From the IMG/VR virus record IMGVR_UViG_3300045135_001556, positions 1 to 29,319 of that record: a stretch of DNA of 29,319 nucleotides, one strand, 5' to 3'. The notes beneath the pieces were generated by a model. It had not been told where the DNA came from. It searched no databases and saw only the letters and a program-made list of their open reading frames with translations. This document shows positions 1 to 27,960 of this stretch, piece after piece; position 1 is the first letter of the stretch, and each line of letters begins with the position of its first letter. The translations under genes were made by a program, and so were the position numbers. This stretch comes from a virus.

Positions 1-1133
1 CTATTATTAACAAATCTAAAAGAATCTATAAAACCTTTTAAATGTTCCTTAGTATCTCCTGCGGTAGCAATACGTCCTATTTCAAAAGCACCGGTAGGGT
101 TGATTGTATAGGTGCTACTAGCGTCAAACTGAACCGCGGAACCGTTGACAAATAAAGCAGTGTTTCCAGTTTCTTTGTTATGAGCAACGGCAACATGAGT
201 AAAAGTATCTGCACTAATAGAGCCACCTTGTATATCTGCTACAACCGAGCCGCTCTCTTTTACTAGCCACTGCATTTTATTATTGGCTAGTCTACTGAGT
301 TTTACAAAATTATTATCATCTGTTCTATGAGAAAAAACTGTATTAGCCTGACTTGCATCTTCAAAACGAGCAAAACATTCAATACAAAAACTACCTTCAT
401 ATTTAAAATCGGCACTGTCCGCAAAACTAATTAAATCACCTGTTCCATCAAAAGAAGCAGAAGAGTTTCCAAATTGTTTCGTGCTACTTAACACAACATC
501 TCCAGTGACGGTGGCTGCTCCACGAGCTTTATCGCTTTCATCTGTAAAATTTGTGTCAAAATTTAGAAGTAAAACTGTATCTTCAAAAGTACCAATACTA
601 ATACCAGCATTACCTAAATTAAGTGCCGTGTTGCCTGTGGTTACTTCAGGAGCAGAATTTATTGCTGGATGAAAATACTGACTAGAAGCTTGTTCTACAC
701 CAGAAACTGTAACTAGTAATTGGTCCGTGCTATTTACATTTTCTTGAAAAGGTAGAGAAAAGTTTTGAGTTACCCCATTAATTGCGTATGTGTTAGCTTG
801 AACTACTGAAGCAGTATTACTATATTCAATATATTTTACTGTTTGAGCGCTCCTAGTAGTTCTAAATCTAGTGGGAACTGTAATAATTTTTAAACTTAAA
901 GAGGAAGCACTAGGAGCAGTCACAAAAGTAACTGTAGCCCCAGAATTGCTAATTGAATAAGTAGAGGTAGCCTGTTCAATACCATCTGCAGTAGCAACTA
1001 CCTCACCAACGTGATCAACAGTATGGGGATGAAGATTAAAGTTAGTGGCACTTCCTGTACTTGAAAAAGTTACAGTGTCAATAGTATCAAAAGCTGTTGT
1101 AGTTATAGTTGCGTCTGTAGGATAAGTAGCCAT
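1..1133 (-). CDS. LamG-domain tail appendage protein (C-terminus outside window)
   Basis: Partial gene: 377 codons are readable from ATG at 1133 to the left edge with no stop. The start shares one base with the tape-measure stop (TAATG), which implies translational coupling. Residues 1-180 are Thr/Ser-rich beta material with two related stretches ending in GIEQATSTY and GVEQASSQY, a style seen in phage fibre N-termini. From about residue 186 a concanavalin A/LamG-type jelly roll begins: VLLLNFD, KQFGNSSASFDGTGD, then CIECFARF, THVAVAHNK and KGFIDSFRF in the usual order. LamG domains bind glycans or proteins. A gene directly after the tape measure usually encodes a distal tail or tip component, so host-surface binding is inferred. 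The domain is related in motif order to the insert in the connector at 10002-11315. Confidence 0.8.
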   Translation of the reverse strand, partial: MATYPTDATITTTAFDTIDTVTFSSTGSATNFNLHPHTVDHVGEVVATADGIEQATSTYSISNSGATVTFVTAPSASSLSLKIITVPTRFRTTRSAQTVKYIEYSNTASVVQANTYAINGVTQNFSLPFQENVNSTDQLLVTVSGVEQASSQYFHPAINSAPEVTTGNTALNLGNAGISIGTFEDTVLLLNFDTNFTDESDKARGAATVTGDVVLSSTKQFGNSSASFDGTGDLISFADSADFKYEGSFCIECFARFEDASQANTVFSHRTDDNNFVKLSRLANNKMQWLVKESGSVVADIQGGSISADTFTHVAVAHNKETGNTALFVNGSAVQFDASSTYTINPTGAFEIGRIATAGDTKEHLKGFIDSFRFVNN

Positions 1134-8185: not shown

Positions 8186-8638
8186 TTAATCTTCTATTTC
8201 ATATCCAACGTTTATAAAGACTTCTCCAAGACCAAATGGTTCTATGAGTCCTTCGTCTGTTGAAATATTTGATATGTTAAATTGTAGTATTCCTTTATCA
8301 GATTGACTTGATATGCCATATATAACATGTTCCACGTCGTCTATCAAATTTTCTAGACCGTCTTGCGCCTCTTCTTGTTTTATATAACATCTAATAACTA
8401 TAGGAAGATTAGCTAAAGTAAATCCTTGAGTCTGATAATCTCTGGTTTCTGCTCCTGCACTTAAATATAAGGCAGGAAAATCGTTTACTTCGTCAATAAA
8501 TTTTAGCTGTCTAAAAACATTATTTGCTAAATCAAAGTTATAAGTGTAGGAGTCGTCAAAAGTTGAAGAGTCACCATTAATTTTTTTTAATTCTGTGACA
8601 AGGAAATTTACAATATCTCTTCTTCGACTGTTTGCCAT
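8186..8638 (-). CDS. Tail terminator-like protein, copy 1
   Basis: The 150-residue protein starts MANSRRRDIVNFLV. This ATG (8638) has an AAGGA site upstream; an 18-residue extension from TTG 8692 is possible but lacks one. Its place just before the tube gene and its size fit a tail terminator/completion protein, which caps the finished tube and joins it to the head. Recognisable blocks are FLVTELKKING, NNVFRQLKFIDEVNDFP, VIRCYIKQE and STDEGLIEPFG. All of these recur in the protein at 27487-27960, showing that the two genes are paralogues. The functional call is inferred from position; the paralogy is seen directly. Confidence 0.72.
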   Translation of the reverse strand: MANSRRRDIVNFLVTELKKINGDSSTFDDSYTYNFDLANNVFRQLKFIDEVNDFPALYLSAGAETRDYQTQGFTLANLPIVIRCYIKQEEAQDGLENLIDDVEHVIYGISSQSDKGILQFNISNISTDEGLIEPFGLGEVFINVGYEIED

Positions 8639-8724
8639 TAATTTTTTCCTTAGCCTATATAGAAGTATAGCAGACCATTTTCTTGTCTGCAATCTATAAA
8701 TTTTTACATCTAATAAATATCTAT

Positions 8725-10002
8725 TTAAAATCCTTTTAAAACATTAAATTGTCTTCCAACTCTTCGTTGGGTTATGTTTCTAATACTTCCCTCAATAGTT
8801 TCGTTAGGATTTCTTGAGGTATTTTGATGCACTTCGTAAATAGGGTTATAATAATATCTAATTAAGTTACCTCTAACCTGTGTTAGAACACTTCTAACGA
8901 AACGTCCACTTCTGTTTGTTAATATTTCGTCACTCAGAGGAGGTCCTTGTAAGGGTCCTTTAGGCATTCTCGCAAACAAAGATCTTTGAACTGCTGCAGT
9001 GAGTTGAGAAGAAGAAATAGTAGCTTGCATCTCCTTCTTTTTTCTTGGGCCTCTTTTACGTGAGCCTCTAACTTTACCCTTTGTCATCGGAATACTAGCG
9101 CCTGATGGGTATTCCATTATCATATCAAACTCAATACCTGCTGCTGTACCTCTTACTTTTGCTTTACCAGGTAAGGACTGTAATTGGTCCACAAAATCTT
9201 CTGTTGAACTTACTGCCATTGCTGGAGCAGTATCTAATAAACTATTAACTAACTGTTTTTCAAAAGATGAGGTTAATTTTAAAACAATAGCGGCGGGATC
9301 GGTTATTTCCATAGTAAAAGGTTGGGGAGCAGTAAATTTACTTAAAGGAAATGATATATTTATTACATCAACCGACGTAAGAGCGTCTCCCTTTTTACTT
9401 TTTGTAAACTTAGAGATTTGTAGAAGTTTTGCTTTACGATAAAACTTCATGAATAAATCGGGGTCATTTTCCTTAATTAAGTTAAAAAATTTAGGTCCTC
9501 CGCCTATAGCCTTTCTAGCGGCTCTTAATACTCCTCTTCTATCTTCAATATCTATTCCCGGGTCAACTTCTTGTGCTGCACTTTTTATTGCTTCTGTTAA
9601 AGATAGTGAGCCTACTTGTTGTCCTCCTTCAATGGTGAATGGAGAAGCTTGTCCAACAGTCGCTCCGCCTTTTTCGCTGCCGCGAGTTGCTTTTGCTTCT
9701 ATTTCTGTTACGTCTTCTAGTCCAAGAGCTGCAGCCAAAGGTGCAGATATTTCTTCTGCGTTAATCTCAAAATCTGGAATGAGACGGGCGTTACCACCTC
9801 TAACGGTTGCTTTAACAAACCTACCTAGTTCAGTTTCTATTGCTCTTTGTGCTTCCTCTCCTCGTAGTTTACTTTTTCTCTCTCCTCCAACAACAGGCTT
9901 ACCACCCCTTTTTATTCCACGTAAAAAATCAGCATAATTCTCTAGTAACTCTGGTTCTGTAATTCTTACTCTATATGCTGTAATTCCTGCAGGAGGTGCC
10001 AT
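8725..10002 (-). CDS. Neck / head-tail joining protein of unknown family
   Basis: This 425-residue protein was not recognised from sequence. It lies between the connector and the tail terminator and overlaps the connector stop by one base (TAATG), so a head-completion or tail-completion role is likely. It begins TAYRVRITEPELLENYADFL, has a Gly/Arg/Lys-rich region around 30-110, a middle section with FPLSKFTAPQPFTM, and a very basic patch (VRGSRKRGPRKKKEM) near 315-330. The C-terminus (IRYYYNPIYEVHQNTSRNP) is Arg/Asn-rich. Proteins of the HK97 gp10 type in this slot are about 110-160 residues, so this one is unusually long and may include extra domains. Confidence 0.6.
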   Translation of the reverse strand: MAPPAGITAYRVRITEPELLENYADFLRGIKRGGKPVVGGERKSKLRGEEAQRAIETELGRFVKATVRGGNARLIPDFEINAEEISAPLAAALGLEDVTEIEAKATRGSEKGGATVGQASPFTIEGGQQVGSLSLTEAIKSAAQEVDPGIDIEDRRGVLRAARKAIGGGPKFFNLIKENDPDLFMKFYRKAKLLQISKFTKSKKGDALTSVDVINISFPLSKFTAPQPFTMEITDPAAIVLKLTSSFEKQLVNSLLDTAPAMAVSSTEDFVDQLQSLPGKAKVRGTAAGIEFDMIMEYPSGASIPMTKGKVRGSRKRGPRKKKEMQATISSSQLTAAVQRSLFARMPKGPLQGPPLSDEILTNRSGRFVRSVLTQVRGNLIRYYYNPIYEVHQNTSRNPNETIEGSIRNITQRRVGRQFNVLKGF

Positions 10003-11315
10003 TATTCAATTATCCTATATAAATCTAAAACTCGTTTAATGTGGGGAGGAAAGTTTGCGGTAAGAGCAGGTCTTGTTACAGATTCTCCAGCAAGAGCAAA
10101 ACCAGAACGATCTTGTTCTTCTTTGTGCAATAGCTTTATATAGTCTAGAGTAGCTAATTTTAAATCTTGTGGTACACTACCAGATTCATACCCTGCACGA
10201 TAGTTAACACGCACAGCTTGAGGAAAATTTTGAAAAGTCTTTGGTCCGTGTAAAGTTAGTTTTTGATACCCCGCACCAGAACCAGTATTACGACTAATTT
10301 CTCCTGTGTCTTTTTTAAACACAAACTCTTCTTGAGAAGCATGAGTATCATTAACATCTACCGCTGCATTAGACCCCTCAAAATGAAGTAACAACACAGT
10401 TTCATCATCAGTTAAATGTTGATACTCAGGAGCAGTAAAGGCCCCGGTATAGTGTGCTGTTTTAGAAATTCGTAGTTCGTCCATATATCCTGTGAAATGA
10501 GCAGGTGTGGTATTACCTGATTTTGCAATAAGCAAATCTCCACTAAAGTTTGGAGCGTCAACTGTTTTAGCAATTGTTACTGTGCTACCAATTTGTCCCC
10601 CATCTCTAAATAATTTAAGAGAAGTTCCACTTTTACTCACTGCGAGATGGTGAAAAGTATTGGCTGTATAACCACTAGTAGCAGCATGAGCAACATTCAT
10701 AACTTCTGTGCCTGCGTCTACTACTCTAAACTGTAATCCTTCTACTGCATTGTATCTAAGTTGCCAAAAATCATTAGCATCCTGATATTGTTCCACTAAC
10801 ACTTGTGAAGTGCTAAAACTAGCAAACCTAGCTTGCACATCAATAGTAAAATCTCCTGTATCAAACCACCAGTCATCTCCGTTAGGTGCGGTCAAAAAAT
10901 CTCCATCTCCGTCAAAATACATAGAAGATTGTCCAAACTTTTTAACTCTTGTTGCTAAATGTGCGTCTCCACTTGTTGTTATTGTATGATTGTCCGAATC
11001 TTGGTCCACTAATAATCCATCCGCTGCAGGAGGATTTAAACTTTCATATCTTGTTCCATCGTACTCAAAAACTGAGTGTACGTTTGCAAGGGGTAAACGA
11101 GAGGTAAAAACTGAGCTGTAACCACCATCAAAAGTTTCCGAGTAGTTATTTGCCAATACCTCTCGTTCAATATAATGTTCTACCACACCACAAGCATAAT
11201 TAATTACATTAGCTAACCTACCATCATGTGTAGTACTATTAATACTTAGATAGTCTTTAGTTTCTACTAATGTAACATATGGATATTTACCTAAATTACT
11301 TTCTGTGATAGCCAC
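10002..11315 (-). CDS. Head-tail connector (gp6-like) with inserted LamG domain
   Basis: The 437-residue protein has split connector halves. Residues 1-100 (YPYVTLVETKDYLSI, then helices including VVEHYIEREV) and 328-437 (QAVRVNYRAGYESGSVP, DLKLATLDYIKLLHKEEQDR, FPPHIKRVLDLYR) match the alpha-helical gp6-like adaptor that docks onto the portal. Between them, about residues 105-325 form a LamG/concanavalin-like beta domain with KKFGQSSMYFDGDGD, GDFTIDVQARF, FHHLAVSKSG and GYMDELRISK, ending in VLLLHFEG. Known gp6-like proteins are about 100-200 residues, so the insert roughly doubles the protein. It likely projects a glycan-binding or decoration domain from the neck; that role is inferred. It follows the small acidic gene and overlaps the next gene by one base. 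Confidence 0.82.
   Translation of the reverse strand: MAITESNLGKYPYVTLVETKDYLSINSTTHDGRLANVINYACGVVEHYIEREVLANNYSETFDGGYSSVFTSRLPLANVHSVFEYDGTRYESLNPPAADGLLVDQDSDNHTITTSGDAHLATRVKKFGQSSMYFDGDGDFLTAPNGDDWWFDTGDFTIDVQARFASFSTSQVLVEQYQDANDFWQLRYNAVEGLQFRVVDAGTEVMNVAHAATSGYTANTFHHLAVSKSGTSLKLFRDGGQIGSTVTIAKTVDAPNFSGDLLIAKSGNTTPAHFTGYMDELRISKTAHYTGAFTAPEYQHLTDDETVLLLHFEGSNAAVDVNDTHASQEEFVFKKDTGEISRNTGSGAGYQKLTLHGPKTFQNFPQAVRVNYRAGYESGSVPQDLKLATLDYIKLLHKEEQDRSGFALAGESVTRPALTANFPPHIKRVLDLYRIIE
10341..11003 (-). other. LamG domain insertion within connector gene
   Basis: This segment encodes connector residues 105-325. The motif that normally opens this LamG type (LLLHFEG) appears at the end of the segment, after GYMDELRIS, so the domain is in a permuted order compared with the left-edge protein at 1-1133, where LLLNFD comes first. 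Confidence 0.65.
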
Positions 11316-11327
11316 CCTCTATTCTCC

Positions 11328-11621
11328 TTAATTTTTGCCAAATAAAGATTTTTTAGTTTTTACTGCGGGCTTAACTTCTTCTACTGCCTCTTCCTTAACC
11401 TCTTCTACAACAGGTTCAGGGGTTGGTTCAGGCTCAGGTTCTGGAGCAGGAGCAACTTCTTCAGCTGCTTTTGGCTCGCCTTTCCACTCAGCAACAAATT
11501 CATCAAGCACAGCTAAACCGTAACCATGTTTCATAGCCCAGTTTTTAACTTCTTCTTCTGTTTTTAAACCTTCTTCTTTGACTTTATCAACATCAGAAAC
11601 AACGTCTGCATAATTTGTCAT
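11328..11621 (-). CDS. Small acidic Pro/Glu-rich head-region protein
   Basis: This 97-residue protein of unknown family has an N-terminal half (1-50) that looks helical, with VKNWAMKHGYGLAVLDEFVA. Residues 52-80 are an Ala/Pro/Glu repeat (APEPEPEPTPEP) and the last residues are basic (KTKKSLFGKN). It has a clear AAAGGAG ribosome-binding site before ATG 11621. It lies between the capsid polyprotein and the connector, where small decoration or head-completion proteins occur. The C-terminal basic tip resembles that of small head proteins that dock by their ends, but no function can be assigned. Confidence 0.7.
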   Translation of the reverse strand: MTNYADVVSDVDKVKEEGLKTEEEVKNWAMKHGYGLAVLDEFVAEWKGEPKAAEEVAPAPEPEPEPTPEPVVEEVKEEAVEEVKPAVKTKKSLFGKN

Positions 11622-11707: not shown

Positions 11708-14700
11708 TTAACCGCACTCAATTAGTGATGCATATGCGAAGTTTGTTGCATCAAGGGCAGCGTTACTGTTAGAGCTAAGTGCTTTGAAGTCAAAGCGGGT
11801 GCTCATATACATTGCTGTAACCTGCTGGCGTGGTTCATACTCGCTCTCAATCTCCATGCCACGGCGTTCCCCGATGAGGAATCCTGGTTTGTAGACTAGA
11901 ACACCGATTTCGTTTCCGGTAGAACCTACGTTATCCATGAACTCAGAGATAACAATTGGAATACCATAAATGGCACCTACTGCACCTGTGAGATACGTGG
12001 CATTTGGTCCGAACTTATCGACAGTGCGGAAGTCAGAGAAGCTAACTAGTTCGTTGTAGCCTTCAACAGAAGTTACATAAACTAGGTGATCTCCAAGCTG
12101 TAGACCATACTTACCCATCTTCGCACGGGCAGAAGCAATGTCTGAAGCATCAGCTTTATCGTTTCCACTACCTGTAGTGGTTCTTAGACCAGAAATGTCG
12201 TCGGCAAGAGTAACAAGACCTTTAATTACTGATGCATAACCAGCACCTGCTGTGATAGCATTGGTTGGGGATGCTGTAAACCCTGTAAGGGCGCCTGTTC
12301 CACGAAGGATTGCCTTGTCGATTGCGCGAGCAACACGGCGTGTAGCTGCACGACGGAGGAAGTCCATTAGAGGTAGAACTGTATCTTCCTCTTCGTCTTT
12401 GGCAAGGTGAGTTGTTGCCATGAACTTATGAGGTGTGAGTTCTACTGCACTAATTGTGTTCTGGTTTGAAGTCGGAACGTTTGTTGCGTCTGCAATGCCT
12501 GTGGCAAAAGTGCCAGAAGCAAACTGAGCAACATCACCGTCTGTGTCTTCCTTAGCAACAGGAATTCTGAAAGTCTTTGCATCAACTTGAATTCTGTCGA
12601 ACATAGGAGCAATAACGAGCTGCTGTTCCATTTCTTCGTATACATTAGATGAGAAATTTGAAAGGAACTGATCAACAGATGTGACCGCCTTAATTCTCTG
12701 ACCCATTTTGGTATCAAACGGATCACGACGGCCTAGAGCTTGAGAAAGCATATAGGAATTTGCCATGTCCTTTGCGGAGAACTGCTCTTTGCTTGTGTGA
12801 GAAGTTTCCTGATAGACCATCTTGGACTGTGTAAGAGCAGAAATTTGCTCTTCGTACTTTTTCATTTGAGCCTTAAGTTCAGCTACCTGCTCTGTTTCAG
12901 CAGGGGTGTACTCTGAACTCTTTTTGTCCTGGGCATCAGCCTCAGTTAGAATTGCCTCACCAGTCTTTTCAACAAGCTCGGCAACTCGTGGCTCGGAAAC
13001 CTGAGCAGGAGCACTCTTCTCTTCAACTGCAGGTGCAGCTTCTGGAGCAGGTGTTTCTGTCTCGGCTTCGGTTTTAACAACGATTGGTTCGCCAACGTCT
13101 TGTGTCGCCATTTTATCATTCTCCTTTGAATTAGTAGTTTTATGACCGTGAAGCATTAGAGCTAAATCTTTTTCCTCAACTTCACCTGATTTAATCGCAT
13201 TCAGCTCTTGAATTTGATTTATCATATGATTCGCAACTTGATAATTTGTATCAGTCCACTCATCGAATGGAGTGATCTTTAAATTAATAGTCTTGTTCAA
13301 TTTTTCTTGATCATCTTCGGTTTTTACCTTAGATTTCACATCGTAAAGCTCTTGCTCACTTAGAGTAACAAGTGACTCGAAGCTTTCTTTGATAGCTACT
13401 CTATCCTTGTCAGTAAATCTGATTTCTGGAACAGTTGTTAGTGTAATATCAAACTTAGTTCCTAAATCCCAGTTATTAACAACAGATAAAGTTTTTGCAT
13501 CAACGTTAATAGTATTATCCAATGATTCGCCATTTAAGTCAACTTCTAAAAGTTGATAAAATGGGTTTTGGGCAGTCGCAAGCTTTGTAACTTTCCACCG
13601 CTTATCATCGAATTTAACAAAATTTTCGTGTGTTAAACGTGATGTTTCCGCACTGAGAAGATTAACAAAAGGAATGGGTTCGTAAGGATCAGCACTAATA
13701 GCTTCGTCCTCATCTTCTATTTCCTCTTTCTCCGCTTCAATAATGTCTTCTTCCGAAGCAACTGTTACAGTCACTTCTTCTGACTTTTCTTCTACGGACT
13801 CTTCAACAGAAACATCGGATGACTCGGTAAGATCATCTTCAGTTTTAATTTCTGAATCTTCACTCATTTCTTCATCTCCTTTTCTGTTTTCCGATTCTGT
13901 TAAGAGATTCATAGACCCATTACCCATCGCCTCAGACGGGGATTGCGGTCTTTGTTCCTCTACACTTTGCTCATTTTGCATTTCACTAGGTTTAACCATA
14001 AAAACAAGCTCATGCTTATGAGAAGTAGGCTTTGTAGCCTCTAATAATTTATAATATTTAACATCATGGAAGTGTTTTTCTCCATGAGAGGTGTAAGTAG
14101 TGACCCCATTACCGTTCTCATCTACTTCCACAGTGTGATAATGTCCACCTACGTATGCAGTGACTCCTACACTAACATCCGCAGCTTTTTCAGTAATTTC
14201 AGTCTCATTTTTTTCAAATTGTTTCTTAAAAGTTTCATAATCTGTATCAGATTCAAAGTTTTTTCTGACACTAAATAAACTCTCTTGGTTACAAGGAACA
14301 GAAACAACACTAATTTCCATTAATTCTACATCAGTAATCAACATAGTATCTGATTCTCTATCATAGTTACCGTCTTTTACTTTAAATCCTACACTAAAAC
14401 TTTTTAGGGCACCGTCTTCAATCAAAGTTTGTACTCCATGTAGTTTTTCAGCCGCTTCACTGACTGCAGCCTCTACATAGATACCTTTTTTATCGACGGT
14501 AACCTTGTCAACACGACCAATAGGTTTTCCGTGGTCATGTTGATATAGTAATACAGGATTTTTTCTGTAGTTTTCAACACCTTTTGCCCAAGCAGTTGCA
14601 GGAATAATGTCACCTGCACGATCTTTATCAGCAGTGTTAGCATATCCAGCAATCTTAAGGGGTTTATTGTTTTTTCTTGCGCCTTTTGTTTCTAAAACGC

Positions 14701-14725
14701 TAGTTAAGTATAATGTTTTATTCAT
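11708..14725 (-). CDS. Prohead protease / acidic linker / HK97 major capsid polyprotein
   Basis: One uninterrupted 1005-codon frame holds three parts. Residues 1-160 match the S78 prohead protease family: LLYQHDHGKPIGRV with the candidate catalytic His (63 or 65), KSFSVGF with the candidate Ser, and ELMEISVVSVPCN. Residues 287-538 are highly acidic at first and scaffold-like. Residues 539-1005 form a complete HK97-fold capsid protein: a coiled-coil delta region (AELKAQMKKYEEQISALT), then NVYEEMEQQLVIAPMFDRI, HKFMATTHLAKDE, LRGTGALTGF and AVGAIYGIPIVISEFM. Strong internal ribosome-binding sites precede Met287 and Met539, so separate shorter products are likely. The start overlaps the portal stop (TAATG). 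Such fusions are known, but the retained internal signals are unusual. Confidence 0.9.
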   Translation of the reverse strand: MNKTLYLTSVLETKGARKNNKPLKIAGYANTADKDRAGDIIPATAWAKGVENYRKNPVLLYQHDHGKPIGRVDKVTVDKKGIYVEAAVSEAAEKLHGVQTLIEDGALKSFSVGFKVKDGNYDRESDTMLITDVELMEISVVSVPCNQESLFSVRKNFESDTDYETFKKQFEKNETEITEKAADVSVGVTAYVGGHYHTVEVDENGNGVTTYTSHGEKHFHDVKYYKLLEATKPTSHKHELVFMVKPSEMQNEQSVEEQRPQSPSEAMGNGSMNLLTESENRKGDEEMSEDSEIKTEDDLTESSDVSVEESVEEKSEEVTVTVASEEDIIEAEKEEIEDEDEAISADPYEPIPFVNLLSAETSRLTHENFVKFDDKRWKVTKLATAQNPFYQLLEVDLNGESLDNTINVDAKTLSVVNNWDLGTKFDITLTTVPEIRFTDKDRVAIKESFESLVTLSEQELYDVKSKVKTEDDQEKLNKTINLKITPFDEWTDTNYQVANHMINQIQELNAIKSGEVEEKDLALMLHGHKTTNSKENDKMATQDVGEPIVVKTEAETETPAPEAAPAVEEKSAPAQVSEPRVAELVEKTGEAILTEADAQDKKSSEYTPAETEQVAELKAQMKKYEEQISALTQSKMVYQETSHTSKEQFSAKDMANSYMLSQALGRRDPFDTKMGQRIKAVTSVDQFLSNFSSNVYEEMEQQLVIAPMFDRIQVDAKTFRIPVAKEDTDGDVAQFASGTFATGIADATNVPTSNQNTISAVELTPHKFMATTHLAKDEEEDTVLPLMDFLRRAATRRVARAIDKAILRGTGALTGFTASPTNAITAGAGYASVIKGLVTLADDISGLRTTTGSGNDKADASDIASARAKMGKYGLQLGDHLVYVTSVEGYNELVSFSDFRTVDKFGPNATYLTGAVGAIYGIPIVISEFMDNVGSTGNEIGVLVYKPGFLIGERRGMEIESEYEPRQQVTAMYMSTRFDFKALSSNSNAALDATNFAYASLIECG
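13109..13127 (-). promoter_or_regulatory. Internal ribosome-binding site and start for capsid protein alone
   Basis: AAAGGAG at 13127-13121 lies nine bases before an in-frame ATG at 13111 (Met539, followed by ATQDVGEP). Initiation here would give a 467-residue product containing only the delta region and capsid domain, close to the expected size of a stand-alone HK97-type capsid precursor. Confidence 0.75.
13865..13883 (-). promoter_or_regulatory. Internal ribosome-binding site and start before acidic linker
   Basis: AAAAGGAG lies eight bases before an in-frame ATG at 13867 (Met287, followed by SEDSEIKTEDD). Initiation here would give a 719-residue acidic linker plus capsid product. The signal is as strong as those of ordinary genes in this window. 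Confidence 0.65.
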
Positions 14726-15999
14726 TAATTTTCATCCTCTGTTGTGGCAGACTCCTCTAGACTTTCATCAGCAGGAGGTCTGCCTCCTTGAGTTGCGTCA
14801 GTAGCACTTCCTGTAATATTTTGAGGAATTCTGATGTTATCTGAGTCATCGTCTTCAAGTTTTGGAAATCTTAATCCAACTCTAGCCTCGTTCGGTGTAA
14901 TAATTCCGGTATTAACCAACGTTGAATAGTAAACAGCTTGAGTTCTATTATCAGGTTGTAAAGATAGTATAGCAGTTTTATCTGGACGTATACTAATGTT
15001 ATTATTAAAGAAGTGAGAAAAAGCACTACAAAATTGTTCTAAAATAGGTAGTACTGTGTGGTTATAAAATAAAACCTGATTAGCCTGAATGTTGGCATTG
15101 TTACCACTTTTTAACATAACATAAGGTACCCCAAGAGCTTTTGCCATATCTTGTTGAATTCGTTCAATTGAATTTTCAAAATCTAATTCATTGAAATTTA
15201 TTTGAGAAAATTTATCAATTTTTAGTCCACCATCTAAGATCGCAGGAGAACGTGCCCCATTAAATAAACTAGTGTAACTTTGTCTCCAAGATTCTAAAAG
15301 TCTATATTTAATTTTTTGACTTAACACATTGTCTGTTGTAAGAACAAAACCTGGAACAGCATTATTCTTAAAGAACTGTCTTTGGAAATTAATCATGTAG
15401 TAATATAGTTCAAAAAGTCTTTCTAGAGGACGAAGTCTACTATACCCTCTGAAAATGCTTTCTTCGTTTTCACTTTTAACATGAATTATTTCATTAGGTA
15501 AAAACTGAATGGCTTCAGACTTTCTTGATTTACCATATCCAAATAAATCTGATTCACTTTGGTTTCTTAAAAGATAATTATAATGAGAAACAAAAGCTTT
15601 TTCATCAGGAACAATTTCCATATCATTGGCAGGAATCACATAAAGTGCTCCTCCCTCTTGTTCTTTATCATAATAAAAAAAGGCGTTACCGTCTAGAAAG
15701 AAATCTAGAAAGGCACGCCTAAATAATCTAACTCTATCCTCAAAAGGATTTGGTTTATTTTGTAATAACTTGTTAACTTTTTTAGAAGGAGAGCCTCCCT
15801 CAATAATTAAAGGAACTTCTACTAAAGCATTAATAACCATGTCCACAGAGCGATGAACAATTTCAATCTCTCTATAAGCTTTTTCAAAGTCTACAATATT
15901 TTCTGGGCTTGAAAAAGGTTCCTGAGCGGCAATAGAAGGCTGCACAGGGTTAAGTTTTTCTGAAAGATATTGTCTCCACGCAGGAACATCATTTGCCAT
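14725..15999 (-). CDS. Portal protein (HK97/lambda-type family)
   Basis: The 424-residue protein forms the dodecameric ring at the capsid vertex through which DNA is packaged and leaves. Family features are visible in order: REIEIVHRSVDMVINALVEV near the N-terminus, LFRRAFLDFFLDGNAFFYY, LPNEIIHVKSENEESIFRG with YSRLRPLERLFELYYY, the wing/stem motif NFQRQFFKNNAVPGFVL, and IERIQQDMAKALGVPYVML. The length is normal for the family. A strong AAAAGGAG site is located inside the end of the HNH gene. The acidic C-terminus (ESLEESATTEDEN) overlaps the protease start by one base. Terminase, nuclease and protease-capsid neighbours confirm the call. Confidence 0.95.
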   Translation of the reverse strand: MANDVPAWRQYLSEKLNPVQPSIAAQEPFSSPENIVDFEKAYREIEIVHRSVDMVINALVEVPLIIEGGSPSKKVNKLLQNKPNPFEDRVRLFRRAFLDFFLDGNAFFYYDKEQEGGALYVIPANDMEIVPDEKAFVSHYNYLLRNQSESDLFGYGKSRKSEAIQFLPNEIIHVKSENEESIFRGYSRLRPLERLFELYYYMINFQRQFFKNNAVPGFVLTTDNVLSQKIKYRLLESWRQSYTSLFNGARSPAILDGGLKIDKFSQINFNELDFENSIERIQQDMAKALGVPYVMLKSGNNANIQANQVLFYNHTVLPILEQFCSAFSHFFNNNISIRPDKTAILSLQPDNRTQAVYYSTLVNTGIITPNEARVGLRFPKLEDDDSDNIRIPQNITGSATDATQGGRPPADESLEESATTEDEN

Positions 16000-22474: not shown

Positions 22475-22916
22475 TGAACAAATCCTTCATTAGCTTATCG
22501 TAGTTGTTAACTTGGATAGCTACTTGCGGTGATTGTTTTTTAGGTTTAGCTGTCTCCTCTAAATCATTTAAATGTTTCATCCAGTCTAACAAATCACGTT
22601 TAGACCAAACACCCGATTCTAGTGCATCCTGTACTTTTTGTTCAATTACCTGATTAACAAGTTTCATACGACGCACTCGATTTAAATATCCTTGTGTAAC
22701 ATAGACATTATCAATATACTTTTTAACGTCATCTTTTTCTAATACAGCAGCTACTCTGTCCTGAGTCACTCCATACTCTTCAGAAATCTTATCTAAATCA
22801 CGACCATCTAAATAATCATTTGCAATTGCTAATAGAACAGGGTCAAGTTTAGGAGTTTCTAAACTTTTATTTAAAGCATCTACATCATGTTTAGGAGCTA
22901 ATACTTCTTGAGACAT
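22461..22916 (-). CDS. Probable terminase small subunit
   Basis: This 151-residue helical protein has a helix-turn-helix-like segment at about 30-65: LDGRDLDKISEEYGVTQDRV followed by AAVLEKDDVKKYID. This fits the DNA-binding start of small terminases, which recognise the packaging site. After it come YLNRVRRMKLVNQVIEQKVQ and KRDLLDWMKHLNDLE, resembling the oligomerisation helices in TerS proteins. It lies upstream of the large subunit but is separated from it by fibre genes, an unusual order. Overlaps on both sides suggest coupled expression. A transcriptional regulator is the main alternative. Confidence 0.6.
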   Translation of the reverse strand: MSQEVLAPKHDVDALNKSLETPKLDPVLLAIANDYLDGRDLDKISEEYGVTQDRVAAVLEKDDVKKYIDNVYVTQGYLNRVRRMKLVNQVIEQKVQDALESGVWSKRDLLDWMKHLNDLEETAKPKKQSPQVAIQVNNYDKLMKDLFNGNG

Positions 22917-23275
22917 TACTTCTTCCTTGGGCCTCCCGGTTTAGGAGAGGCTTTTGAGCCTCCTTTACCTGCCCACAAAACTTTGCGTGCCCAATAATTA
23001 GCTGAAAATTTATCATTTTTGGTTAACTGACCACCCTTACCTCTAATGCCCGCACTTCGAGCCATATAAGATGCACGAGCTTTAGAAGAATAATTATGTC
23101 CATAACCTTTTTGACCAAATTCTACCACTTTAATTTGATCACCTTTTTTAGCTAAAACTCTCATTTTCTTTTTAGAGGAAGAGGGTGCTCGTTTTGGCTT
23201 GTTAAACCCAGGAAAACGCTCTCCTCGATAAACCACACCTCCTTTTGTTCTTTTTGTGTCTTTAGCTGTTGCCAT
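22916..23275 (-). CDS. Basic phage protein with FGQKGYGHNY-type domain
   Basis: The 119-residue, strongly basic protein has the core KVVEFGQKGYGHNY, SKARASYMARSAG and FSANYWARKVLWAGKG. The pattern (a hydrophobic strand ending in FG, a basic RAS/ARxSY segment, then SAxYWAxKxLW) resembles a short domain recalled from phages and some giant viruses whose function is unknown; this was not checked against a database. A strong AAAGGAG site precedes ATG 23275 inside the end of the SGNH gene. DNA or RNA binding is inferred only from charge. Confidence 0.7.
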   Translation of the reverse strand: MATAKDTKRTKGGVVYRGERFPGFNKPKRAPSSSKKKMRVLAKKGDQIKVVEFGQKGYGHNYSSKARASYMARSAGIRGKGGQLTKNDKFSANYWARKVLWAGKGGSKASPKPGGPRKK

Positions 23276-23835
23276 TAAAATTCTCCTTTAATTTTGTTGT
23301 ATACGTCTGTTGCAAAATGCTTATTGTCCTCTAGATTCATATGGTTTTTAGCGATAACTGAAGTTAAAACTAAATCACCTTTGCTATCTTTTTCATATAA
23401 ATTTGTCCAGTAATCGCACGATAAATTTTGTCCATTCGTAAATTTGTAGTGCTGTGCATCAGTCCAGTATATGTGCAAGCATGAATGTTTTTCTAAAGCT
23501 TTGTCCCATCTTTCATAGTCATGTAAAGTTAAATCTCTTAAATCATAATACTGATCTGATCTCGTAGGATGTGTGTGAAATATTATAGTATAATCACGAT
23601 TTTCATTATATGTTTGTTGATAGCAATACAGAGTTGTTGGTTCTGCGCCTCCTGATATACCATAAGAATGTATTTCTGCATCTAATTGCAAAGCTAAGTG
23701 ACTTATCCAAGATTCTTGCCTAACATGTTTTGGCATTCTTGCTAGTTGTGCAAAAGAGTCTCCAAAAACTAAAATTCGGTTAGCTGCGCCCTCATTTACG
23801 ATAGCGGGTAATTCATACTTAAAGTAAAAGTGCAC
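23275..23835 (-). CDS. SGNH/GDSL-like hydrolase
   Basis: The 186-residue protein shows the SGNH core: ILVFGDSFAQL places Ser27 as nucleophile, SYGISGGAE (57-65) could be the Gly block, and the C-terminal LEDNKHFA has Asp170 and His173 in the DxxH spacing of the catalytic dyad. The usual Asn block is unclear, possibly replaced around HTHPTRSD, so activity is not certain. SGNH enzymes remove acetyl groups or cleave esters on glycans. In a phage this may trim host surface sugars or modify virion glycans. The start is GTG 23835, overlapping the previous stop as TAGTG, with only a weak ribosome-binding site. Confidence 0.72.
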   Translation of the reverse strand: MHFYFKYELPAIVNEGAANRILVFGDSFAQLARMPKHVRQESWISHLALQLDAEIHSYGISGGAEPTTLYCYQQTYNENRDYTIIFHTHPTRSDQYYDLRDLTLHDYERWDKALEKHSCLHIYWTDAQHYKFTNGQNLSCDYWTNLYEKDSKGDLVLTSVIAKNHMNLEDNKHFATDVYNKIKGEF

Positions 23836-24023
23836 TAGCGTCTCTTTTTAAATCCAATGGGTTTTGTATATTTAATAGGATAACCCAATTTGCGTGTTTG
23901 TTCAATAAATTTTTCCAAACGTTTAGTTGAAAGCTTTCCTCGCACGGCTAGTTTTCTTATACGATGTGCGCCGGGTACGTTCATAGGACGACCCGGCGCT
24001 GTCTTTTTATTAAGTCGTGCCAC
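23835..24023 (-). CDS. Tiny basic protein (62 aa)
   Basis: The 62-residue protein starts from GTG 24023, immediately after the preceding TAA. About a third of residues are Lys or Arg (RLNKKTAPGRPMN, HRIRKLAVRGKLSTKRLEKF, ending GFKKRR). No family was recognised. Its tight coupling with the SGNH gene and other basic genes suggests co-expression. A DNA-condensing or minor head protein role is a guess. Confidence 0.65.
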   Translation of the reverse strand: MARLNKKTAPGRPMNVPGAHRIRKLAVRGKLSTKRLEKFIEQTRKLGYPIKYTKPIGFKKRR

Positions 24024-24287
24024 TTAGCTTCCCACACCTTTGCGGTATGCCCGCGTTTTTTTCGCGATTTTACGAGGTTGCTTCACAAATTGACGACCTT
24101 TTTTGGTGCCCTTGCGTTTAGCGGCGTTCGTTGCCCTTTTCTCCCCAGGAGAAAGAGCAGCCCAAGCAGCTTTAGGCAGATACCTTCCGCGTTTAGCACG
24201 AGGCTTTTTAGATTCACCTTTAGATGAATATCCCCATTTCTGTTTAGTCCAAGCTTTCAAGGACCGTTGGGATTTCTTTAAAGCCAT
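24024..24287 (-). CDS. Small basic protein with WTKQKW motif (DUF5872-like)
   Basis: The 87-residue protein begins with SLKAWTKQKWGYSSKG, continues with GRYLPKAAWAALSPGEK, then KRKGTKKGRQFVKQP and ends RKIAKKTRAYRKG. This block order matches a short domain recalled as DUF5872, present in phages and in nucleocytoplasmic giant viruses; the database name was not checked. No catalytic residues are evident. The start ATG 24287 directly follows the preceding TAG. Composition suggests nucleic acid binding. Confidence 0.78.
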   Translation of the reverse strand: MALKKSQRSLKAWTKQKWGYSSKGESKKPRAKRGRYLPKAAWAALSPGEKRATNAAKRKGTKKGRQFVKQPRKIAKKTRAYRKGVGS

Positions 24288-24434
24288 CTACTTCTTCTTC
24301 TTTTTAGCCATAATTGCTTTTTGAAGTGCGGGAGGAAGTTTCTTTTGAGCGGCGGTTAGACCGTTTCCATTCTTTTTCGCTCCGTTTTTCTTCATTGTCT
24401 TCTTTTTTCCATTTGCTTTTTTATGCATAGCCAT
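24288..24434 (-). CDS. Tiny Lys-rich protein (48 aa)
   Basis: The chosen start is ATG 24434 (MAMHKKANGKKK), nine bases or so after a strong AAAGGAG. A longer frame back to 24479 would overlap the previous gene and has no better signal. The sequence is very Lys-rich, with the recognisable tail LTAAQKKLPPALQKAIMAKK, a motif recalled from several environmental phages. That tail forms a plausible amphipathic helix. Function is unknown. Confidence 0.7.
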   Translation of the reverse strand: MAMHKKANGKKKTMKKNGAKKNGNGLTAAQKKLPPALQKAIMAKKKKK

Positions 24435-24447
24435 TATCGTCTCCTTT

Positions 24448-24804
24448 TTACGCCCAAGGCGCTTCTTTTGTAGTAACATAAGATTTTAGTTCAATTAGTT
24501 GGTTAACTTGCTCCTCTTTACGAGCCTGCGCTTCTTCAAGAGACTCGCCTTCTACATCAGCGTAAGTCTTTAAAATCCATTCAAGAGCTTTTTCTTCTGT
24601 AACATCTTCAAATGCAATCCAATTCTCTACGTCAACAGGTTCAAGAGCAGCAGACCCATAAATCCAAGCTTCTGTGTCTTCAGTTGCGCCAGTAAACTTC
24701 CAATGAATAGCACGGATAGCATCTTCTAAATCGTTGACATCATCTCCCATAAGCTCGTTGGACACGTCCATTGGACCGATTTCCCAAGTATAAGTAACTT
24801 CCAT
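24448..24804 (-). CDS. Acidic conserved phage protein (118 aa)
   Basis: The 118-residue acidic protein reads MEVTYTWEIGPMDVSNELMG and IRAIHWKFTGATEDTEAWIY, then NWIAFEDVTEEKALEWILKT, ending KEAPWA. This arrangement (MEVTYTW at the start, an IHW strand, a beta-rich first half, a helix and a PWA end) is recalled from cyanophages and other marine phages as a conserved protein of unknown function. A GGAG site precedes ATG 24804. It contrasts sharply with its basic neighbours and could be a partner for one of them, though nothing shows this directly. Confidence 0.75.
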   Translation of the reverse strand: MEVTYTWEIGPMDVSNELMGDDVNDLEDAIRAIHWKFTGATEDTEAWIYGSAALEPVDVENWIAFEDVTEEKALEWILKTYADVEGESLEEAQARKEEQVNQLIELKSYVTTKEAPWA

Positions 24805-24814
24805 TTTTTTTCTC

Positions 24815-25420
24815 CTATTTTAAGAGTTTTTGACACTCTTCATTGTGTAAAGAAACCCAGTAATCTGTAAAGTCTTGACACTTTTTATTTGAAGCACATC
24901 CTAGAGGTTGTAATAAAGAGTCTCCAGCAGTTTTTATAACATCTTGTAAATAGCACGACTGATCACAGTACTCCCAAAGTCTTTGATTGTTCCAAACTTG
25001 ATGATTGTTCCACTCGTACATATACTCATCTGTATAATATTCATCCATCATTTCATCAAGACTATTATATCTAGGCCACGCACTATTTAACCAAGCACGT
25101 TTATACCAAGATAAAGTTAGTTGAGTCTTTAAATCCGTATAAAGCCAGATTGAAGTCACATCGTTCAGTGCCTGCACACGTTTTAATTGACGACCTCTAG
25201 GGTTACAAATAAAAAATAATTTATGATCAATATCACTCTCACTAGTTTCTTGGTTATTAGGCCACTGTTCTGATGCTTTCCACGTTTCCATTGAACTAAT
25301 GTCCCAATGTTTTGACCAGTCATTATTAGGTAACCAACGATAGGATGTTGCCAGTGATAACAAAGTTAGAGCGTAAAATCCTCCAGAAGCTCCTTCATAA
25401 TACAAACAGATGTCTTTCAT
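24815..25420 (-). CDS. Trp/Tyr-rich protein, possibly sulfotransferase-like
   Basis: The 201-residue protein is unusually rich in Trp, Tyr, Asn and Gln. It opens DICLYYEGASGGFYALTLLS, a strand-loop-helix that resembles a degenerate nucleotide-binding loop; LFFICNPRGRQLKRV and VTSIWLYTDLKTQL then suggest alternating strands and helices. This pattern loosely recalls phage sulfotransferase-like proteins, but the Lys of a true PAPS loop is not seen. The start overlaps the preceding stop as ATGA. Another six cysteines lie in the C-terminal half (for example YCDQSCYL). Assignment is tentative; treat as unknown. Confidence 0.55.
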   Translation of the reverse strand: MKDICLYYEGASGGFYALTLLSLATSYRWLPNNDWSKHWDISSMETWKASEQWPNNQETSESDIDHKLFFICNPRGRQLKRVQALNDVTSIWLYTDLKTQLTLSWYKRAWLNSAWPRYNSLDEMMDEYYTDEYMYEWNNHQVWNNQRLWEYCDQSCYLQDVIKTAGDSLLQPLGCASNKKCQDFTDYWVSLHNEECQKLLK

Positions 25421-25719
25421 TTTTTCTTTTTTCGTCGTGCAGTTATCTTTTTCTGTTGATTAATGAATGCTCTATATACACCAGCTGCGCTTGGCTTGCC
25501 CGCTACGCGGGCACGCTGCTCCATAGCGATAGCAGCTTGTGTCTTATGAGCATGACTTTTGCCACTTCGACGAATGCGAGACACGCTGGCCCGGGCGTCT
25601 TTCACGGTGGCAAACTTTAACCGCTTAATTGTGCCCTTGGGATTTTCATCGGTATACAAGTCCGAGTGCTTTTTTGAGTTGGCCCGCTGGCCCTTACGTC
25701 TGGGAATTCTTGGCGCCAT
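25417..25719 (-). CDS. Basic protein with DLYTDENPKGTIKRLKF motif
   Basis: The 100-residue basic protein has blocks DLYTDENPKGTIKRLKFATV, KDARASVSRIRRSGKSHAHK, TQAAIAMEQRARVAGKP and AGVYRAFINQQKK. The same block order is recalled from small proteins of unknown function in phages and giant DNA viruses (not checked in a database). The His/Lys-rich SHAHK centre and the helix AIAMEQRA are likely conserved landmarks. GC content here (53% on one 60-base line) is well above neighbouring genes, mainly from CGC/GCC codons, hinting at separate origin or strong codon selection. It overlaps the TTG-started gene before it as TAATG. Confidence 0.75.
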   Translation of the reverse strand: MAPRIPRRKGQRANSKKHSDLYTDENPKGTIKRLKFATVKDARASVSRIRRSGKSHAHKTQAAIAMEQRARVAGKPSAAGVYRAFINQQKKITARRKKKK

Positions 25720-25892
25720 TAGCTTTTGCCCCTACGTCCTAAATCTTTCTTCTTGCCTTTATATGGCCCCGACTTTCTCGCAATTAAACCTCGTGCAACT
25801 AGGCGAGCACGGTTCGTAGAACCGATAGCCTTGCCTGCACGGTGCTTGCGGAGCAAGGCAGCGTAGTTGATACGTGGTTTACGTTTTTTCAA
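25719..25892 (-). CDS. Tiny basic protein, TTG start (57 aa)
   Basis: The frame fills the gap between two basic genes exactly. It starts with TTG at 25892, overlapping the previous TGA as TTGA, and ends with TAA sharing a base with the next ATG. A strong GGAGG lies nine bases before the TTG, within the end of the upstream gene. The protein reads KKRKPRINYAALLRKHRAGK and ends KKKDLGRRGKS, highly basic with a possible helix. No family was recognised. Without accepting TTG it would be missed. Confidence 0.75.
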   Translation of the reverse strand: MKKRKPRINYAALLRKHRAGKAIGSTNRARLVARGLIARKSGPYKGKKKDLGRRGKS

Positions 25893-26089
25893 CGATATCC
25901 GCCTCCGGCACGTTTGTAAGCTGCGGCTAACATTTGAGCCTTACGGGCAGACCACTGCCCTGGCGCTCCCCCTTTGCCGCCAGCTTTGATTCGACTGAAA
26001 AGTCTTTTTCGCATCGTTGGCTTCGTATAATTACCTGCCTGATTCACACGACTTTTTGTTTTACGCTTAACCTTTTTTCTAGCTGGCAT
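25889..26089 (-). CDS. Small basic protein (66 aa)
   Basis: The 66-residue protein has a basic N-terminus (MPARKKVKRKTKSR) and a folded-looking second half, MRKRLFSRIKAGGKGGAPGQ, WSARKAQMLAAAYKRAGGGY. The latter resembles a short motif recalled in many phages and some bacteria; function unknown. A strong GGAG site precedes ATG 26089. It overlaps the next gene by four bases (TTGA). Nucleic acid binding is likely from charge alone. Confidence 0.75.
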   Translation of the reverse strand: MPARKKVKRKTKSRVNQAGNYTKPTMRKRLFSRIKAGGKGGAPGQWSARKAQMLAAAYKRAGGGYR

Positions 26090-27486: not shown

Positions 27487-27960
27487 TTAAACTGTAGCAT
27501 CCTGCTGATAACGAAGAAGGCCGTTAACAATAACTACTCCAAAAGGAGTCATTAGGCCCTCATCAGTTTCTGTTGACGTAATTATAACATCAGTAATTTC
27601 TCTAGCTTGTGATGTAGCTTCTGACGTTAAATTTTCTAACACAAACTCAATGTCATCTGCCAAGTCTTCTTCTGTTTCTATAGTTGCTTCGTCTTTAATA
27701 TATGCCCTAATTTCAAAACCAAAAGTTCCAAATCTAACACCTGCGCCAATCTCAAGTCTATCTTCTCCAGCTGCAGTTACGCAAAGAGTAGGAAAATCAT
27801 TAATCTCATTTAAGAATTTCATGCGGCGAAATACATTGTTAAAGACGTTTGTTTTATAGGTGTACCCATTACGGGCAGGAACTGTCCTTGCATCCTGTTG
27901 TCCATTTATTCTTTTTAGTTCTGTCACTAAAAAATCAATTATCTGTGTTCTGCGACTCAT
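27487..27960 (-). CDS. Tail terminator-like protein, copy 2 (paralogue)
   Basis: The 157-residue protein is clearly homologous to 8186-8638: FLVTELKRING, a YTY block, NNVFRRMKFLNEINDFP, EIRAYIKDE, DLADDIEFV and STETDEGLMTPFG align one after another. It has its own ribosome-binding region (AAAAGGG) and start ATG 27960. It sits about 19 kb from copy 1, outside the tail gene block, among unknown proteins. It may be a second tail or neck component with an altered role, or a relic of duplication or acquisition. The frame is intact and codon use resembles copy 1. Confidence 0.75.
   Translation of the reverse strand: MSRRTQIIDFLVTELKRINGQQDARTVPARNGYTYKTNVFNNVFRRMKFLNEINDFPTLCVTAAGEDRLEIGAGVRFGTFGFEIRAYIKDEATIETEEDLADDIEFVLENLTSEATSQAREITDVIITSTETDEGLMTPFGVVIVNGLLRYQQDATV

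Follow-up and report, generated by a model that had tools for sequence, protein, structure and literature searches.

The gene at 10002..11315 on the minus strand of the window (the whole stretch of viral DNA that was analysed, 29,319 nucleotides) encodes a 437-residue head-tail adaptor with an internal LamG domain, an architecture that is widespread, old, and conserved in a group of uncultured bacterial viruses. Adaptors connect portal and tail at a joint under tight constraint. This widespread lineage nonetheless carries a whole lectin-type domain inside one, and a loop of the adaptor's attachment domain evidently tolerates large insertions. An earlier note had placed a LamG domain within a head-tail connector at these positions; both the domain and the coordinates proved right, with the gene lying on the minus strand.

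The adaptor gene and its neighbourhood

The open reading frame (ORF) starts with a GTG codon at 11315, preceded by a Shine-Dalgarno-like motif that can be read directly from the sequence, and ends with a stop codon at 10002-10004. In the direction of transcription, the gene order runs from the portal protein over a fused protease-capsid protein, a 97-residue ORF, the adaptor, and a 425-residue ORF to the tail terminator, followed by the major tail protein, a tail chaperone, the tape measure, and a LamG-bearing protein at the contig end. The adaptor gene sits between the genes for the capsid protein and the tail terminator, and this order is identical in the related loci L053 and L038.

14725..15999, minus strand: portal protein (PF04860, E=6.6e-51)
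11708..14725, minus strand: prohead protease apparently fused to HK97-type major capsid protein, 1005 residues (phrog_80 at 16-318, phrog_10 at 531-986)
11324..11329, minus strand: AAGGAG, Shine-Dalgarno-like, 5' of the GTG start of the adaptor gene
8725..10002, minus strand: 425-residue ORF directly after the adaptor gene, family unassigned
8186..8692, minus strand: tail terminator (PF23818, E=4.7e-23; phrog_3907)
3..1133, minus strand: separate protein with a LamG of its own, distinct from that of the adaptor; its gene directly follows that of the tape measure and is truncated at the contig end

Long ORFs akin to the protease-capsid fusion are also present in L053 (955 residues) and L038 (995 residues). 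The 425-residue ORF gave no match in Pfam, PHROGs, or isolate phages; ORFs resembling it follow the adaptor gene in L053 and, in shorter form, in L038.

Domain composition of the adaptor

The protein divides into two adaptor halves with the LamG insert between them:

11016..11315, minus strand: N-terminal adaptor half, residues 1-100, with two helices and the first strands of the attachment beta-barrel (phrog_442 match; AlphaFold2)
10338..11015, minus strand: LamG insert, residues ~101-326, between attachment-domain strands 90-92 and 331-333 (VIA-align range 107-324; absent from L037 and L053)
10455..10913, minus strand: Laminin_G_3 core, residues 135-287 (Pfam)
10005..10334, minus strand: C-terminal adaptor half, residues 328-437, with the last attachment-domain strands and the C-terminal helices (phrog_442; HCP of Pfam at 366-434; DT57C HCP, 8hqo)
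10059..10109, minus strand: low-confidence loop, residues 403-419 (pLDDT <50)

As a whole, the adaptor matches phrog_442, annotated as "head-tail adaptor" in PHROGs (E=4.5e-21). Searches with each flank alone place residues 1-104 at positions 78-166 of this profile (E=6e-8) and residues 325-437 at 171-262 (E=1e-11), which makes the two pieces adjacent halves of one profile. In Pfam, Laminin_G_3 (PF13385) at residues 135-287 scores 52.1 bits against a curated cut-off of 27.6 (E=1.1e-13), and the head completion protein family HCP (PF24163) at 366-434 scores 35.1 bits against a cut-off of 27 (E=1.9e-8). The gp6-like family Phage_connect_1 (PF05135) gave a weak match at 14-57 with 13.6 bits, below its cut-off of 21.2 (E=0.09). 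Judged by these sequence profiles, the adaptor is related to classic HK97 gp6 and Phage_connect_1 but is not a member by the curated cut-off. Across the 42 aligned proteins of the family, PF24163 was matched by all 42, Laminin_G_3 by 40, and Phage_connect_1 by 25 (E<=0.001).

The earlier proposal that both halves are gp6-like holds with one refinement: The flanks are indeed neighbouring stretches of phrog_442, but Phage_connect_1 stays below its cut-off and the branch is that of the T5/DT57C head completion proteins. The domain of about 220 residues and LamG type that had been placed between the halves is confirmed at residues ~101-326 by the Pfam match and by the structural comparisons below. 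The insert is acidic, with a net charge of -17 in the window protein and a mean of about -11 in the family, which fits a charge-based contact and a solvent-exposed surface alike.

Predicted folds and the insertion site

AlphaFold2 was run on the alignment of 42 sequences. The model of the window adaptor reaches a mean pLDDT of 83 (near 90 in the LamG part) and a pTM of 0.75, and its N-terminal part is predicted to form helices at 16-23 and 31-49 followed by strands at 56-92. Compared by VIA-align, the insert (model residues 107-324) resembles PAPP-A, AbnA domain 4, PTX3, and CBM40 with Z scores of about 16-18.6; the matches to PAPP-A, AbnA domain 4, and PTX3 (Z 18 over 176-184 residues, rmsd 2.5-3.0) identify the predicted fold as a jelly roll, and Foldseek matched the insert to laminin alpha2 LG5.

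A VIA-align search with the full window model returned LamG-like matches only, and the adaptor fold was therefore tested through the insert-free relative L037. Its model (pLDDT 79) superimposes on the neck protein of phage DT57C (8hqo_P) with Z 12.1 over 166 of 170 residues, and on the adaptors of Mycofy1 (Z 11.9), T5 (11.8), RcGTA (11.3), phage 812 (10.7), and Milano (8.8). The model of the window protein shows the same order of helices and strands. In L037, a loop at 83-102 links strand 80-82 to strand 103-108, while in the window protein the LamG domain occupies the place between the equivalent strands 90-92 and 331-333. LamG is thus predicted to replace a loop between neighbouring strands, which makes the insertion ends adjacent in the parent fold. 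That the flanks fold together as one adaptor domain with adjacent insertion ends, as the earlier note would have it, is borne out at the level of these models.

Since L037 models as a T5/DT57C adaptor, we assign the scaffold to the branch of T5/DT57C head completion proteins within the gp6-like adaptors and not to classic HK97 gp6. Aligned to a T5-like head completion protein, the insertion site falls within the attachment domain (T5 residues 46-110) near the IGP-EQF turn, in a comparison whose profile match is strong only over the C-terminal part. A profile comparison with Milano neck 1 gave no match, so that the site is unmappable on the Milano structure by sequence, and a hand-typed consensus of gp8-type adaptors, which as a query matched phage genes of the gp8 family, carries no weight here. 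The low-confidence loop at 403-419 likely corresponds by position to the lumen-facing hairpin of the DT57C head completion protein (138-149), judging from the alignment and the published structure (PMC10713586).

Relatives and a natural empty site

Close relatives with the full fusion, 47-99% identical, were found at the first search, and further loci came from one scan with the C-terminal half and another with the family alignment. The widest scan of IMG/VR yielded 338 confirmed related stretches, and we read the distinct ORFs among the 80 that were kept. Every complete distinct ORF read bears LamG at the same site, except those of L037/L038 (one contig) and L053. The fusion is intact with the same boundaries in many independent contigs, and the length of the insert is stable at 216-237 residues. 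Since the architecture recurs unchanged in these contigs, with an unbroken frame and strong matches to the families, the probability that the frame is an assembly join or a chance open frame is negligible.

With a length of 207 residues, the insert-free proteins of L037/L038 and L053 continue without a break through the insertion site, which in them is a short loop between two strands. L037 and L053 on one side and all other relatives on the other constitute a natural comparison with and without LamG. In six contigs of 50-174 kb (G002, G003, G006, G007, G008, and G010), the LamG of the adaptor is the only LamG match.

An ORF of about 210 residues that looks beta-helix-like by eye lies between the capsid and adaptor genes in L053 (4920-5585), L038 (5001-5627), and L072 (~738-1343); it had no tblastn match in the other loci compared, and the L053 and L038 copies had no PHROG match. 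A simple swap of LamG for this separate gene is ruled out because L072, which bears the insert, also has the ORF.

No isolate phage record had one place covering 80% of the adaptor protein. The N-terminal flank and L037 were without any match among isolate phages, the C-terminal flank matched only T5-like phages at ~26% identity, and adaptor flanks surrounded LamG in none of the isolates. Prophage relatives, sought in genome contigs as a clue to the host, were not confirmed in any case.

Evolution of the insert

The insert is under purifying selection, with a median dN/dS of 0.086 compared to 0.077 for the flanks (simple counting method over 40 non-independent pairs with usable synonymous distances). 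Its pairwise identity tracks that of the flanks (r 0.89 with the N-terminal and 0.85 with the C-terminal flank), and with mean pairwise identities of 42% for the insert, 60% for the N-terminal flank, and 55% for the C-terminal flank, it evolves faster than the flanks at depth. Between the window and contig G001, identity amounts to 87% for the LamG of the adaptor and to 63% for the tail protein that bears a LamG; between the window and the closer G011, the two are about equally conserved (90% and 89%).

In a tree of LamG domains, the tail LamGs of the same genomes cluster apart from the adaptor LamGs (98/96). The latter are not forced into one clade, and nine of them stand on a long separate branch; the insert may have had one origin or several. 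L067 is placed with one lineage by its flanks and with another by its LamG, which may reflect one replacement of the domain. In the flank tree, the insert-free proteins cluster with insert-bearing L072 (98/95 for the wider group) on a topology that involves long branches, a placement compatible with gain as well as loss of the insert.

Probable position and role of the LamG domains

The solved relatives of this adaptor are dodecameric in DT57C (PMC10713586), T5 (PMC11313276), and RcGTA (PMC7296036). In solved necks, the outer domain contacts the portal or the capsid: The attachment domain of T5 (46-110) is located on the outer surface of the portal (PMC11313276), the equivalent small beta-barrel of DT57C contacts the portal (PMC10713586), and the beta-sandwich of phage 812 is found at the outer neck in contact with the capsid (PMC12886913). 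The RcGTA adaptor holds on to capsid proteins with its attachment domain and the beta3-5 loop therein (PMC7296036), and the Milano adaptor is bound to the capsid protein via a head-joining loop. The Ig-like attachment domain of the marine siphophage R4C contacts the capsid as well, and its authors favour local stability over adsorption as its role (PMC10276861). By analogy, we infer that each ring would carry twelve LamG copies and that these likely sit on the outer face adjoining the portal vertex.

We picture a siphovirus whose adaptor, probably dodecameric and of T5/DT57C type, has a complete LamG jelly roll in place of one loop of its outer attachment beta-barrel, such that the ring would bear twelve LamG domains on its outer face beside the portal vertex. 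There, LamG would enlarge the attachment domain and either clamp the neck, with its twelvefold symmetry, onto the fivefold vertex of the capsid or shield the joint. With moderate confidence, we consider such a structural role as clamp or shield at the portal vertex to be the probable one. It is favoured over host adhesion by the site within the attachment domain, by the evolution of LamG along with the flanks, by purifying selection, and by the conservation seen in the G001 pair. That six of the larger contigs have no LamG match besides that of the adaptor also counts in favour of the structural role. Several observations speak against a clamp: The structural matches of the insert include the sugar binders AbnA domain 4 and CBM40, LamG is also found in cyanophage and Rhizobium phage proteins of the baseplate and tail, the insert evolves faster at depth, two relatives lack it, and the G011 pair shows about equal conservation. 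LamG folds often bind glycans.

The earlier note had suggested a second host-adhesion site or an anchor for whiskers, and neither gains support from this analysis; the location, the purifying selection, and the tracking of the flanks by LamG make this the less likely reading. An adhesion ring would consist of twelve lectin-like domains at the neck whose binding to host glycans or to surface polymers would help a first, reversible attachment, similar to the carbohydrate-binding modules (CBMs) in the neck passage proteins of 936 phages. The LamG/pentraxin/CBM40 fold of the insert (Z about 18) agrees with this idea, its net charge of -17 would suit a polyvalent surface contact, and 936 phages have published CBMs in their neck passage proteins as well as inserted into Dit, with binding of CBM-containing proteins assayed (PMC6669499). 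Nevertheless, we regard adhesion as unlikely, given that the attachment domain of homologues adjoins the capsid, that the insert is under purifying selection with no general swapping of LamG between lineages, that in one genome pair the tail protein with LamG is less conserved than the adaptor LamG, and that published neck CBMs are found on long fibres and not on the adaptor. Slightly less probable still is that the adaptor ring itself would be a twelve-fold lectin for host or environmental glycans, a second adhesion organ within an essential protein of the DNA channel.

The LamG ring could instead dock another virion protein at the neck, be it a collar, whiskers, side fibres, or a protein that decorates the capsid. 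In T4, XM1, Milano, and phage 812, neck collars and whiskers are docked close to the adaptors, and adjoining genes without an assigned role exist, for example the 425-residue ORF at 8725-10002. This neighbour also follows the adaptor gene in insert-free L053 (and is shorter in L038) and hence does not track LamG. We found no partner gene co-occurring with the insert and consider docking to be improbable.

Very improbable is a neutral decoration, that is, a mobile LamG module kept in a permissive loop without a specific job. It would accommodate the relatives that do without the insert (L037/L038 and L053), a flank tree compatible with gain and loss alike, and the wide occurrence of LamG domains in phage structural proteins. 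Against it stand the single site that LamG occupies across almost all distinct relatives that were read, its stable length, and its low dN/dS; one would expect a functionless cargo of 225 residues, present twelve times per ring, to decay. The outer adaptor domain can in this system be tested for a role in capsid clamping across the 12:5 symmetry mismatch or in neck-borne adhesion.

Relation to known adaptors and neck domains

The T5/DT57C head completion protein (PF24163, phrog_442; PDB 8hqo, 9ilp) shares the sequence family, the insert-free fold, and the place of the gene between those for the capsid protein and the tail terminator with the window protein but has 170 residues and a tight loop where the latter has ~225 additional LamG residues. 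The adaptors of RcGTA, phage 812, Mycofy1, and Milano have the same overall fold, and in those described an outer beta domain bridges to portal or capsid; unlike the window protein, they have no more than a small beta domain there, and Milano has a 16-residue head-joining loop and no lectin domain. The adaptor of roseophage R4C (PMC10276861) is dodecameric and carries an extra beta-sandwich domain outside the head that contacts the capsid, but this domain is N-terminal and Ig-like instead of LamG, and its authors report no similar known structure.

The lactococcal 936 phages (PMC6669499) likewise display carbohydrate-binding folds at the neck and have a CBM inside a ring-forming tail protein (evolved Dit), though on other carrier proteins and with the neck CBMs at fibre tips. 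LamGs of the same domain family, with up to 38% identity, are found in structural or baseplate proteins of cyanophages and in the tail region of Rhizobium phages, where they are part of large fibre or baseplate proteins and lack adaptor flanks. Extra beta domains on adaptors (R4C, phage 812) and neck CBMs on other proteins (936 phages) were hence already known. A limited literature search found no report that pairs LamG with a head-tail connector, an absence that is no proof of novelty.

Other features of the window

A second gene of the tail terminator family PF23818 is located at 27487-27960 on the minus strand, ~19 kb from the copy at 8186-8692 and outside the head-tail block. The region at 22916-26089, also on the minus strand, contains a row of small ORFs that are very rich in lysine and arginine.
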